Shown here one piece after another: positions 21,242 to 33,388 of a stretch of 64,000 bases of DNA. A program made the position numbers and the translations under genes. The notes beneath the pieces were generated by a model. That model was not told the DNA's origin and did no database searches. It was given only the letters and a program-made list of their open reading frames with translations. Each line of letters begins with the position of its first letter. Position 1 is the first letter of the stretch. Where the stretch lies: positions 496,001 to 560,000 of the forward strand of contig NZ_BHXQ01000003.1 of the NCBI RefSeq assembly GCF_003990915.1, read 5' to 3'. The stretch is from Chryseotalea sanaruensis. Lineage in GTDB: Bacteria > Bacteroidota > Bacteroidia > Cytophagales > Cyclobacteriaceae.

Positions 21242-22801
21242 GTGCACAACAACTATTATACACTTAAACAACTCACACGAGAACTCGAGCCTTTACTCAG
21301 CAGGAGTGTTGTTTCCGAGTGTTATAGTCAGAACAAAGAAGAATTAATCATTCGCTTTGAAATCAAAAACCAGTCATTCTACATCAAAGCTAATCTTCAG
21401 CCCAGTTTTTCCTGTTTGTCTTTTCCAGAAGTATTTCACCGGGCCAGAAAAAACTCTGTAGATCTGTTTCCTGATTGCATAGGGCTAACGGTTGAAAGTA
21501 TCCGACAATTCAATGACGAAAGAAGTTTTGCCATTGCACTCAGCCACAACTTTTCTCTTCTTTTTAAAATGCACGGCAACAGATCTAATGTAGTTTTATT
21601 TGAAGGCGATCAGGTGCATACCATCTTCCGTAACAACCTTGAGGCAGATGAAAATATTGCAATGGCTGATCTTGACAAAAATATTGACTGGCGTATAGAG
21701 GCAATGCCAGATTTTGCCGAAGGCATTCGCAAACATTTTTTTACGCTGGGCAAATTGGTTTGGCGGTTACTGGAAAAAGAATCCTTTTTTACTCAAGCCC
21801 GGGAAATGCAGTGGAAAAGATTGCTTGAAATAAAATTACAACTTGAGTCTCCTGCATTCTACATAACAGAAAGTGAAGGCAGCATCTTGCTATCCTTGCT
21901 ACCAACAGGTAATATCATTCTTCAGGAGGGCAAAGTCATTCTTGCGTTAACACAATTTTATAATCATTATCAACAGTTTAATGCGTTTGAACAGGAGAAG
22001 GCAAAAGCACTGCAGGCCATTGGTGCCACACTCAAGAGTACCAATGCCTACCTCAGTAAAACAAGGGCCAAGCTTAACGAGGTTACACATGATCAGCACT
22101 ACAAAATCTGGGCAGATGTGTTAATGGCCAACATGCATGCCATAAAACCTGGTGCTACACAAGTAAGCCTGCCTGATTTTTACAACAACAACCAACTGAT
22201 TGAGATCAAACTCAAGCAAGAACTAAGTCCACAAAAAAACGCTGAAGTCTTTTACAGAAAATCTAAAAATCAGCAGCAAGAAATTGAACGCCTGCAAAAA
22301 GCGCTTGATGAGAAAGAAACAGAGAAGCAGAAAAGCGAGGCTTTGCAAACACAACTGAGCAACATTACTTCGCTGAAAGAACTTAGAGCATTGCTGCAAA
22401 CAACGCATCCGTCAACCAACAAGAAAGAAAAAGTAATTACACTCCCCTTCCATGAGTTTGTATATAAAGACTATATAATCTGGGTTGGCAAAAATGCACA
22501 AGCAAACGATTTGCTTACCCTTAAGCACAGTCGTAAAGAAGACTTATGGTTACACGCCAAAGATGTAGCAGGTTCGCACGTAATCATAAAACAGAAATCT
22601 GGAAAAGCTTTCCCTAAAGATGTTATCGAGCGCGCAGCACAACTTGCTGCCTATAATTCAAAAAGAAAATCGGAAGGCCTGGTACCTGTTGCTTACACAC
22701 CAAAGAAATTCGTCAGAAAAAGAAAAGGCGACCCAGCTGGCCTGGTAGTGGTTGAGCGCGAAGAGGTTATTTTAGTAGAACCCAGGTTAATTGACAGTTG
22801 A
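21242..22801 (+). CDS. rqcH: NFACT protein, RqcH/Rqc2-like ribosome quality-control factor
   Basis: 519 residues from GTG at 21242, chosen because MHNNYYTLKQLTREL aligns with the family start. The order is NFACT-N domain (about 1-180), a coiled-coil and middle region (about 235-380) and a C-terminal NFACT-R domain (about 400-500) with the characteristic WLHAKDVAGSHVIIK. RqcH-type proteins bind stalled large ribosomal subunits and recruit alanyl-tRNA for tailing. The last eight codons lie inside a 97-bp direct repeat that recurs 386 bases downstream. Confidence 0.92.
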   Translation: MHNNYYTLKQLTRELEPLLSRSVVSECYSQNKEELIIRFEIKNQSFYIKANLQPSFSCLSFPEVFHRARKNSVDLFPDCIGLTVESIRQFNDERSFAIALSHNFSLLFKMHGNRSNVVLFEGDQVHTIFRNNLEADENIAMADLDKNIDWRIEAMPDFAEGIRKHFFTLGKLVWRLLEKESFFTQAREMQWKRLLEIKLQLESPAFYITESEGSILLSLLPTGNIILQEGKVILALTQFYNHYQQFNAFEQEKAKALQAIGATLKSTNAYLSKTRAKLNEVTHDQHYKIWADVLMANMHAIKPGATQVSLPDFYNNNQLIEIKLKQELSPQKNAEVFYRKSKNQQQEIERLQKALDEKETEKQKSEALQTQLSNITSLKELRALLQTTHPSTNKKEKVITLPFHEFVYKDYIIWVGKNAQANDLLTLKHSRKEDLWLHAKDVAGSHVIIKQKSGKAFPKDVIERAAQLAAYNSKRKSEGLVPVAYTPKKFVRKRKGDPAGLVVVEREEVILVEPRLIDS

Positions 22802-22872
22802 CAATGGTCAATGGACGATAGTCAATGGTGGGTGTACGTGTCTATTTATCTCCTCTTCTGGTTCTTAAAAAA
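22776..22872. repeat. 97-bp direct repeat, copy 1
   Basis: Identical, as far as I can read, to 23162-23258. It starts inside the rqcH 3' end and holds that gene's stop codon. It then contains GTCAATGG-type short repeats and ends with the C-terminal codons of the minus-strand gene seen intact at 23228-23437. After its last A the sequence changes to CCCC and the palindromic element begins. Confidence 0.95.
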
Positions 22873-22876
22873 CCCC

Positions 22877-23157
22877 GCTGTTCGACATGTTAGCGCAGCG
22901 CATGTCGAACTTTTAATAAAACGGATTTTTAATCCGTATACTTTTAATGGTGTTGCGTATGCCTAGCCAAGAGATTACACCAATAACAATTAAACTATCA
23001 CCTATTAAATTTATTTCAAATTGATGGTTGCTTTGTTAGTGATGCCACCTTACCAAGATTGGGCGCAACACCAAGAAAGACAAGGCTTTTCAAAACGGGA
23101 TTAAAAATCCCGCAACATCAAGCGTTCGACATGCGCTGCGCTAACATGTCGAACAGC
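22877..23157. mobile_element. REP/BIME-like element with 34-bp terminal inverted repeats
   Basis: The left end (22877-22910) and right end (23124-23157) are perfect reverse complements over 34 bases. Each contains a GTTCGACATG / CATGTCGAAC hairpin. Just inside are two smaller hairpins, ACGGATT/AATCCGT near 22920 and CGGGATT/AATCCCG near 23096. The roughly 210-base core encodes nothing recognisable. The double-hairpin inverted layout is like a REP pair (BIME) mobilised by RAYT-type transposases, one of which is encoded at 32834-33388. Whether that enzyme recognises these hairpins is unknown. Confidence 0.75.
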
Positions 23158-23161
23158 TTGT

Positions 23162-23258
23162 TAGAACCCAGGTTAATTGACAGTTGACAATGGTCAATGG
23201 ACGATAGTCAATGGTGGGTGTACGTGTCTATTTATCTCCTCTTCTGGTTCTTAAAAAA
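23162..23258. repeat. 97-bp direct repeat, copy 2
   Basis: Second copy of 22776-22872, offset by exactly 386 bases. Here the right-hand end continues into the intact 69-residue minus-strand gene, so this copy keeps the original rqcH-to-gene junction on its right side while copy 1 keeps it on its left. Confidence 0.95.
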
Positions 23259-23540: not shown

Positions 23541-24971
23541 TTACTTCACTACATTCACCTTAATCGTATTGGTTCTGTTACGCTCGTGAATCGGCATGCT
23601 CGCCAACACAATAAAAGTATCGCCAGTTTTTACGTGTCCATCGCGCTTCAAAACATTTTCCACATCATCCATAGTTTGGTCGGTAGAAAACATTTTATCA
23701 TAGAAGTAAGTGCGAGCACCCCAAACTAAACTCATCGTGTTTAGAATAGTTGTATTGGCAGTAAACACAAAAATATTGGTATTTGGTCTGTGTGAAGCCG
23801 CTCGGAAAGCAGTGTGACCTGAATATGTCATACCTACTATTGCTTTAGCACCGATATCTTTAGCCAGTTTACAAGCCGATAATACTAAACTATCGTTTGT
23901 GTAAGATTCGTTGGTCGGATCTAACTCGCGATAGCGATAATAAATCTTATTATTCTTTTCAACAGAGGAAATGGTACGTCCCATACTGCGGATTACTTCA
24001 ATAGGGTATTTACCAGCGGCAGTTTCTGCAGAAAGCATTAAGGCATCTGCCCCATCCATTACGGCATTGGCAACGTCATTGGTTTCTGCGCGTGTAGGGC
24101 GAGGATTTTCGATCATGCTCTCCATCATCTGGGTAGCAACAATCACAGGCTTGCTGGCTTTATTACATTTTTCCACCAACATTTTTTGTACCATAGGCAC
24201 TTCTTCCATCCAAATCTCCACACCCAAATCACCACGGGCAACCATAACGGCATCAGTTAATTCAATGATTTCGTCAATGTTACTTAGTGCTTCTGGCTTT
24301 TCAATCTTGGCTATGATCTTAGCATTAGATTTATTCTGATCGATGATGTTGCGCAACACAGTAATGTCATGTGCTTTACGCACAAAGGATAATGCTATCC
24401 ATTCAACATTATGCTTTATACCAAATTCAAGGTCTTTTAAATCTTTATCCGTTAATGAGGGCGCTGAAACTTTGGTGTTCGGTAGATTAATTCCTTTTTT
24501 CGATTTTAAAGGCCCACCATAAATTACTTCTGACACTACATCAATGTCTCTAACCTCTTTTACTTTAAGTTCTATTTTGCCGTCATCAATCAAAATAGAG
24601 TCTCCCTCTTTAACATCATTAGGCAAAGCCTTGTAAGAAGTACTAGCAATCTCGCGGTTACCGACTAATTCGCGAGTAGTGATAATAAATTCCTGGCCTC
24701 GCTCAAGAACAACATCCGGTTGCATATCCTGCACCCTTATTTTAGGACCCTGCAAGTCTTGAAGTAAGCACACATGTGTGCCCATCTCTTCGTTTAACTC
24801 ACGTACAGCTTTTATAACCTTCAAATGATCGTCATGTGTACCATGCGAAAAGTTGAGGCGAAAAACATCAACACCCTCTTTAATAAGGGCTCTCAGCATT
24901 TCTTTATTGTTGGAAGCGGGGCCGACCGTGGCGACTATCTTGGTCTTGTTGTACGAAACTTTCTCGAACAT
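23541..24971 (-). CDS. pyk: Pyruvate kinase
   Basis: 476 residues, usual length. The N-terminus TKIVATVGPASNN with RLNFSHGTHDDH, the catalytic region around KIEKPEALSNIDEI and MVARGDLGVEI, and MMESMIENPRPTRAETNDVANAVMDG are all present. It transfers phosphate from phosphoenolpyruvate to ADP. It follows the IPExxxVDY gene by 5 bases on the same strand, an arrangement seen repeatedly in Bacteroidota, so the two form an operon. Confidence 0.98.
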   Translation of the reverse strand: MFEKVSYNKTKIVATVGPASNNKEMLRALIKEGVDVFRLNFSHGTHDDHLKVIKAVRELNEEMGTHVCLLQDLQGPKIRVQDMQPDVVLERGQEFIITTRELVGNREIASTSYKALPNDVKEGDSILIDDGKIELKVKEVRDIDVVSEVIYGGPLKSKKGINLPNTKVSAPSLTDKDLKDLEFGIKHNVEWIALSFVRKAHDITVLRNIIDQNKSNAKIIAKIEKPEALSNIDEIIELTDAVMVARGDLGVEIWMEEVPMVQKMLVEKCNKASKPVIVATQMMESMIENPRPTRAETNDVANAVMDGADALMLSAETAAGKYPIEVIRSMGRTISSVEKNNKIYYRYRELDPTNESYTNDSLVLSACKLAKDIGAKAIVGMTYSGHTAFRAASHRPNTNIFVFTANTTILNTMSLVWGARTYFYDKMFSTDQTMDDVENVLKRDGHVKTGDTFIVLASMPIHERNRTNTIKVNVVK

Positions 24972-29660: not shown

Positions 29661-29689
29661 AATCCTATTCACCAAAAGCTAACTACGCA

Positions 29690-29740
29690 CTCCTCGTCCT
29701 CGTGTGCAACGAGGATGCCTGAGGTTAGCACTTTCAGTGC
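29690..29740. repeat. REP palindrome pair, copy next to the decayed transposase
   Basis: A first hairpin (29695-29717; CGTCCTCG/CGAGGATG arms) is followed by CTGAGGTTA and a second hairpin (29728-29740; GCACTTTCAGTGC). The same order and spacing recurs at 32780-32826, directly beyond the 3' end of the intact RAYT. Confidence 0.8.
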
Positions 29741-29745
29741 CATCT

Positions 29746-29836
29746 TGTCTATAATGCAATTACTGCTAAAAGTCCTTGCCTTTTCTTAAATAATTCAATG
29801 CACTGCTATAAACAAATTCTCTGCCCGATAAACAAA
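29746..29836 (-). pseudogene. Decayed 3' end of a REP-associated tyrosine transposase
   Basis: On the minus strand this stretch encodes VYRAEN and, after a one-base loss, YSSALNYLRKGKDF. The intact RAYT at 32834-33388 ends VYRAEDYVYSSALDYSRKGKG. The alignment, the shared downstream REP hairpins and the frameshift identify it as the remnant of a second RAYT copy; the 5' portion is gone. About 150 bases to 29983 hold only AT-rich spacer, including a TCAGGATGGTCAGGAT-type short repeat near 29850. Confidence 0.8.
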
Positions 29837-31240: not shown

Positions 31241-31281
31241 GAGGGAGTTTCCCTCACTGGTCGTAGCGTCTCGCTACGACC
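31241..31281. repeat. REP hairpin pair (GTCGTAGC type), left copy
   Basis: GAGGGAGTTTCCCTC (31241-31255) and GGTCGTAGCGTCTCGCTACGACC (31259-31281) are two adjacent near-perfect hairpins. A related pair in inverted orientation lies at 31535-31584. Confidence 0.8.
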
Positions 31282-31534
31282 TTTTCCATGTTTATACAAA
31301 CACCAATTCACTTTCGTTCTTTCTACTTCCATAATAAACACCTGCACAATTGCGTAGTTATTCTTTATTTGTCGTACAGAACGCCTTTGCATTCTTCCCG
31401 AATAAAAGCCTTGATCTAAGGAATGACGATAAATGTTATAAAATAAAGCTACTGATTATCATGAACAAATACTATCTGACCATGTCTTCTAAATTCCACA
31501 CATAAAAATAATAATTTAGGCTAGCCTTTTCAAG

Positions 31535-31584
31535 GGTCGTAGCGAGACGCCACGACCAGGGGGCGAACTCTGAGCGCCTCCCCT
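31535..31584. repeat. REP hairpin pair (GTCGTAGC type), right inverted copy
   Basis: GGTCGTAGCGAGACGCCACGACC (31535-31557) is the near reverse complement of the left hairpin, and is followed by a GC-rich imperfect hairpin up to 31584. With the left copy this forms a BIME-like unit of about 340 bases. The interior (31282-31534) contains no convincing gene. Confidence 0.75.
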
Positions 31585-32833: not shown

Positions 32834-33388
32834 CTATAGTACGGTTACTTTTAAAAGCCCCTTCCCTTTTCTCGAATAATCTAATGCACTACTATAAACA
32901 TAATCCTCTGCTCGATAAACAAGCCCCGCTTCAACAGGATTATTGTGAACATAATCTATTTTATTCAGCATATCAATCTTCATTTGATCTAAATCAATGG
33001 CATGATTATCGTCTGTCCATATTTTAAAATCTTTAGCTCTCTGTGTACGCCTGGCTTCAAAAGCAAATTTATCTAACAACCATTCCCTTCTGCTTTCATT
33101 AATTTCTTCCATAACACTTATTATCTTCTTTGAAGTGAATTTCTTAAAATCCCTTAGAAAATCAGACATGCGGTGTGGCATGTGACAAGCCGCAACTAAA
33201 TGAACATGATTAGACATTATAACCCAGGAGTAAATCTCAAGGCCTTTGGCAGCCTGGCAATATTTTAAAGAATCGACAAGTACATCTCGATATTCTTTTC
33301 TTGTAAAAAGATCAATCCAATGAATAACTGTGAGTGTAAGAAAATATCGCGAATGCTGGTCGTTAACAAAGTATCTATCGCCTGACAT
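32834..33388 (-). CDS. REP-associated tyrosine transposase (RAYT)
   Basis: 184 residues of the Y1/IS200-like HUH family. The HUH metal motif is SNHVHLVA (H61, H63). It is followed by the RAYT-specific helix with YVHNNPVEAGLVYRAEDYVYSSA near the C-terminus. RAYTs cleave and join single-stranded DNA at REP hairpins and are usually domesticated, single-copy genes. It is flanked by palindromes on both sides (32780-32826 and 33485-33530), and a second decayed RAYT lies at 29746-29836. No inverted terminal repeats of a full insertion sequence were seen. Confidence 0.93.
   Translation of the reverse strand: MSGDRYFVNDQHSRYFLTLTVIHWIDLFTRKEYRDVLVDSLKYCQAAKGLEIYSWVIMSNHVHLVAACHMPHRMSDFLRDFKKFTSKKIISVMEEINESRREWLLDKFAFEARRTQRAKDFKIWTDDNHAIDLDQMKIDMLNKIDYVHNNPVEAGLVYRAEDYVYSSALDYSRKGKGLLKVTVL

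Follow-up and report, generated by a model that had tools for sequence, protein, structure and literature searches.

Two direct copies of a 97-nt sequence, identical at every base and 386 nt apart from start to start, lie where the end of rqcH faces the convergent pyruvate kinase gene of Chryseotalea sanaruensis, in the 64,000-nucleotide stretch analysed here (contig NZ_BHXQ01000003.1, positions 496,001 to 560,000; hereafter the window, whose numbering is used throughout). The 289 bp between the copies carry 34-nt inverted arms that are perfect reverse complements of each other, and measure 281 bp from foot to foot (Table 1). An earlier note on this DNA had described the perfect 97-bp repeats and 34-bp inverted ends; their coordinates and identity were all reproduced, and the bracketed structure at rqcH is real. 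The note had called the arms terminal inverted repeats, but although the inversion is perfect, they are not mere terminal repeats: each is a complete palindromic REP hairpin. Four nucleotides lie beyond each REP foot at the joints (CCCC on the left, TTGT on the right). An inner inverted pair of 13 bp lies further inside the element, and a single long stem (-122.9 kcal/mol) is the predicted fold of the 289 bp as one strand under RNA parameters. When the window was compared with itself by BLAST (E<=1e-5, offsets below 6 kb), just two further direct repeats appeared, one with copies 1.5 kb apart and 90% alike, the other with copies 3.1 kb apart and 83% alike.

Table 1. Features of the rqcH-pyruvate kinase interval, in window coordinates
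Feature	Position	Strand	Basis or remark
rqcH (NFACT family)	21242-22801	+	Pfam NFACT_N, NFACT-R_1; spans left edge of copy 1
Target copy 1 (T): rqcH 3' end and 71 bp downstream	22776-22872	+	sequence
Inserted element (E)	22873-23161	.	289 bp; predicted single long stem
Left end common to C8 RAYT region	22873-22936	+	64 bp, 96.9%
Left REP hairpin, foot GCTG	22877-22910	+	sequence, pattern search
Inner 13-bp inverted repeat, left arm	22923-22935	+	right arm 23098-23110
Middle of element	22937-23083	.	no further copy found in own genome
Right end common to C8 RAYT region	23084-23157	+	75 bp aligned, 88%
Right REP hairpin, foot CAGC	23124-23157	-	perfect reverse complement of left hairpin
Target copy 2 (T)	23162-23258	+	identical to copy 1
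Orphan ORF, 94 aa	23228-23512	-	spans right edge of copy 2
Pyruvate kinase, convergent neighbour	23541-24971	-	ORF and Pfam

Copy 1 contains the stop codon of rqcH, and copy 2 contains the stop and last nine codons of the minus-strand ORF. The repeat had been taken to hold the ends of both rqcH and a small gene; the rqcH end stands, but the view of the ORF as an established gene is not supported. The ORF gave no Pfam or NCBIfam match, and its 69-aa form had matches in none of 38 other genomes. When the rqcH/pyruvate kinase junction of a congener (G002) was read by eye, neither the element nor the minus-strand ORF was seen; the order there is rqcH, then a short palindrome, then pyruvate kinase. 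The RqcH proteins of congeners are 48-68% identical to that of the window, and the locus offers no alignable empty allele. In another genome, a separate fragment resembling the last 56 RqcH residues (L028 492-659; G001:C22:116675-116842; 71% to the window protein) adjoins a full rqcH that is only 48% identical, and may be the relic of a replaced gene.

The Chryseotalea genome (G000; 4.71 Mb, 38 contigs) was searched with 483 bp of the window locus. Fifty matches were obtained, with 40 of 52 candidates scored: the query's matches to itself, direct and inverted, account for the element, three are short parts of the target (29-34 bp), and the remainder fall on the REP ends. The middle of the element had no match of its own among these 40 scored candidates, and only weak matches of 21-23 bp in the fetched loci. 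The exact hairpin pattern occurs at 22 places in the genome and at none in a control, and a relaxed pattern identified 23 REP sites in the fetched own-genome loci. Thus the 34-bp ends, for which the earlier note had suggested a genome-wide search, do recur throughout the genome, including around a putative transposase gene. A 175-aa ORF on contig C8 (L009:6798-7325, minus strand), flanked on either side by REPs of this kind, matches Pfam Y1_Tnp and, at 124.1 bits against a cut-off of 80, the NCBIfam model for REP-associated tyrosine transposases, or RAYTs (NF047646). This ORF also matches the TnpA-REP structure PDB 4er8 weakly (E 5.5e-4), and scores 26.8 bits against NF033573 (IS200/IS605), below the 55-bit cut-off. 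The left-end match of the window element in Table 1 is to the outer left REP of the C8 region; the inner left REP matches over 62 bp at 95.2%. Judged by its sequence, the window element is a non-autonomous REP doublet, without a gene, of an atypical Bacteroidota RAYT family. The proposal of a REP/BIME-type element is borne out by the palindromic, multi-copy REPs and their inverted orientation, and an ordinary insertion sequence or MITE was ruled out by the kinship of the ends with the RAYT/REP family.

Described REPINs and BIMEs (PMC3116915, PMC2817692) resemble the window element in being short, intergenic, multi-copy inverted pairs of palindromic REPs, in genomes where the same REPs flank a RAYT gene. 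They differ in the foot, which is GTAG/GTGG in those elements and GCTG/CAGC here. Tandem REPIN clusters that include flanks are already known (PMC3116915, PMC3733652), the latter paper describing several REPs with GTAG or CGTC tags, whereas the window holds one doublet between two long, perfect target copies. The C8 RAYT is close to TnpA subclass 2.6, described in PMC6006769 as mostly from Bacteroidetes, ~179 aa long, with motifs NH[LIV]H, WQ and YIH[QN]NP, without a GT[AG]G consensus and with atypical flanking structures. It shares with that subclass its origin in Bacteroidota, a length of about 175-180 aa, the NHIH and WQ motifs and atypical flanking hairpins that are copied elsewhere, and differs in its Y motif (YIHMNP); compared by motifs, the fit is close but unproven.

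Hairpins are copied together with their flanks elsewhere in this genome. Next to the C8 RAYT, a REP together with the tail of the RAYT gene forms a tandem duplication (205 bp, 97.6%). A second Y1 gene (L013:2457-3005, minus strand; Y1_Tnp match, 49% identical) is accompanied by three copies of another hairpin and tail, 95-97% alike, and a tandem unit at L342 (centre G000:C1:814391; offset 189, 89.5% alike) is closed by a hairpin of that gene's family. The window itself contains a second RAYT gene (32846-33382, minus strand; NF047646, 91.6 bits) with its own hairpins, which constitute a third family, and a one-ended copy (82.8%) of its left hairpins and tail is found at 29687-29835. Two other regions (L349 and L350, G000:C2:758276 and 753213) contain both ends of this RAYT and 66-75 bp of its gene start without the rest. 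They resemble internally deleted copies, a hint that RAYT units themselves move in this genome. Window positions 31251-31347 match the hairpin and tail of a RAYT gene on contig C7 at 76%, with a further hairpin match at 31535-31563.

A second bracketed site in the same genome (L018, G000:C2:66115) consists of a REP doublet, 104 bp from foot to foot, between perfect 77-bp repeats (1536-1612 and 1724-1800). An open frame of at least 521 codons enters copy 1 and stops there at 1567, and the stem of a terminator-like hairpin, AATGGCTTGTG-AAAT-CACAAGCCATT, is by eye completed only beyond copy 2. Since the frame crosses the left edge and the terminator is completed on the far side, both outer joints are original and the ancestor had one T. 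The bases beyond the feet are TCC and GTAG, which puts all joints of the two sites 3-4 nt beyond the feet; inspection by eye of the bases outside REP feet revealed no clear motif. Because the T pairs are identical at both sites, the two structures look recent.

A more complex version is present in Aquirufa ecclesiirivi (L147), where 427-bp copies, 94.8% alike, flank two REPs. A search of the genus gave any match in 6 of 31 genomes, and in the three relatives whose sequence spans T (L227 of A. beregesia, L228 and, in part, L229) the segment is single, with one place in each to which both L147 copies align. L227 carries part of the left flank ~84 bp from T, without an element between them, and has REP copies farther upstream; the left flank is not recognisable in L228 and is located elsewhere in L229. 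The relatives with one copy argue that such structures grow from a single copy. By analogy with L018, with its gene and terminator, and with the three single-copy Aquirufa relatives, the window locus most likely began with a single copy of the 97 bp, in agreement with the earlier note. Of the two observations that the note had named as refuting, neither was seen: single-nucleotide differences, the mark of old and independent copies, are absent, and no relative with both copies but without the element was encountered. In an uncultured Bacteroidetes MAG (L172 4729-5178), a gene end with a terminator-like hairpin is repeated over 104 bp at 98.1%, and the copy starts immediately beyond a REP foot; the relative G077 shows a single copy within the 2.8 kb compared. 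We do not count this locus as a third bracketed site, since what follows copy 1 may be the original right flank, as it is in G077.

Long bracketing is a minority outcome. When one rule was applied to all REP sites in the fetched loci, 2 of the 23 own sites were bracketed on both sides, 3 had the REP inside a repeat and 18 showed neither. None of the 162 foreign sites was strictly bracketed: two were one-sided (L172 and L130), one was composite (L147), 114 showed neither, and 45 had the REP inside a repeat, a "tandem" class that also includes REP copies merely neighbouring. L130 was not counted as a bracketed case; its repeat is 37 bp, with one copy 889 bp away. Most insertions of this REP family leave no long duplication, or have since lost it. 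As a background, 20 other stretches of the same genome (393,001 bases), two of which contain REPs, had no direct repeats of at least 40 bp and at least 90% identity at offsets of 30-800.

The hairpin pattern was found in at least 110 stretches, and 80 foreign loci were among the matches listed, 79 of them Bacteroidota by name and one Lachnospiraceae. In these 80 loci (626,455 bases), 35 of the 54 short-range direct repeats span a REP, compared with 9.2 on average and at most 21 over 500 random placements, a count that takes overlapping pairs within one array separately and overstates their independence. Direct repeats abutting 92 element spans in the same loci gave 83 raw scores of 9 or below, and no common short target duplication. 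With 59 loci from further searches added (139 foreign loci in total), all 11 non-redundant true tandem units that hold a REP have an edge within 12 nt of its foot, where 3.2 were expected and none of 10,000 simulations reached this count; the units come from seven genomes, four from one of them, and each needs just one new joint. The earlier note had preferred REP-mediated copying or slippage to ordinary transposition. Since the edges of the duplications fall at the REP foot, copying linked to REPs is a better fit than slippage at arbitrary places. Such edges would be expected of a nuclease acting on hairpin bases or of an enzyme cutting at the foot.

On balance, and with somewhat better than even confidence, we favor an origin in which a REP doublet entered the rqcH-pyruvate kinase gap and duplicated 97 bp of its target in the same event, converting L-T-R to L-T-E-T-R. 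Joining at the REP feet, with duplication of 77-97 bp of target, is the best reading of the structures. We infer a single event, a RAYT as the maker of the joints, and the manner in which T was doubled. The two ends of a single-stranded element would be joined to two target strands of the same polarity that overlap by T. At a replication gap, for example, one nascent fragment could supply its end and the following fragment its displaced 5' flap, a model that makes use of the behavior of Okazaki flaps, and the length of T would correspond to the strand overlap, here 77 and 97 nt. RAYTs have been reported to process single-stranded REP in vitro (PMC8266576). Counted in support of this origin are the ends shared between the element and the C8 RAYT region, L018, the joints 3-4 nt outside the feet, the foot-edged tandem units, the excess of short-range repeats that span REPs, the empty background and Aquirufa; weighed against it are the strict bracketing of just 2 of 23 own and 0 of 162 foreign sites, and a window locus without an alignable empty allele.

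The same T-E-T arrangement could arise in two steps, if E inserted beside T, T-E was duplicated in tandem, and one E was then precisely excised. Tandem REP-plus-flank units are common here, as the 11 true units illustrate, and such units have been described in Pseudomonas, where REPIN excision was seen in reads (PMC3116915). However, this route demands three events including a scarless excision, twice in one genome and with the T pairs still identical, and a T-E-T-E intermediate was seen at neither the window locus nor L018; we regard this route as unlikely. A process without any transposase, in which replication stalls at the REP hairpin or the hairpin is cut at its base and the flank is copied again by template switching or break repair, is in our view slightly less likely again. 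SbcCD is a hairpin nuclease that could make such a cut, edges at the hairpin base suit a base-cutting nuclease as well as a RAYT, and three hairpin families of this genome have hairpin-plus-flank copies. Nevertheless, this process explains tandem units better than the clean insertion of E with both ends exact, and it does not alone bring E to a new site. An assembly artefact, conceivable in a draft of 38 contigs, is very improbable given that two independent loci within large contigs share the structure but not the target, and that comparable cases occur in other assemblies. An ordinary MITE of a DDE transposon, or a chance arrival of E at the junction of an old direct repeat, is scarcely credible: the inverted ends look MITE-like, but they belong to the RAYT/REP family, DDE-type MITEs give target duplications of 2-14 bp and not 97 bp, and the repeats are identical, abut E and occur in two cases in one genome.

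Joining at the REP feet with duplication of the target would also set this system apart from IS200/IS605 elements, with which the C8 RAYT system shares an HUH/Y1 transposase and hairpin ends; those elements are reported (PMC2817692) not to produce larger target duplications, in contrast to the 97 and 77 bp observed here. In the literature searched, which excluded supplements and most subscription papers, a single REP doublet between long perfect target copies was not found described, and no published role of a RAYT in making long duplications was found. More tentatively, and with considerable doubt, we extend the favored origin to the family: its REP doublets might integrate via a RAYT that joins their feet to overlapping nascent strands at replication gaps, duplicating ~80-100 bp, and the tandem REP-plus-flank arrays of other bacteria might be one-ended products of the same process. 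Long target duplications with joints just outside the REP foot would mark this mechanism with a footprint that any genome can be searched for and that is also testable at the bench. Such insertions may explain doubled gene tails and terminators next to REPs, and the unusual length of the duplication may hint at how common bacterial REP repeats spread. If true, the replication-gap route would be the missing step in the dissemination of REP elements.
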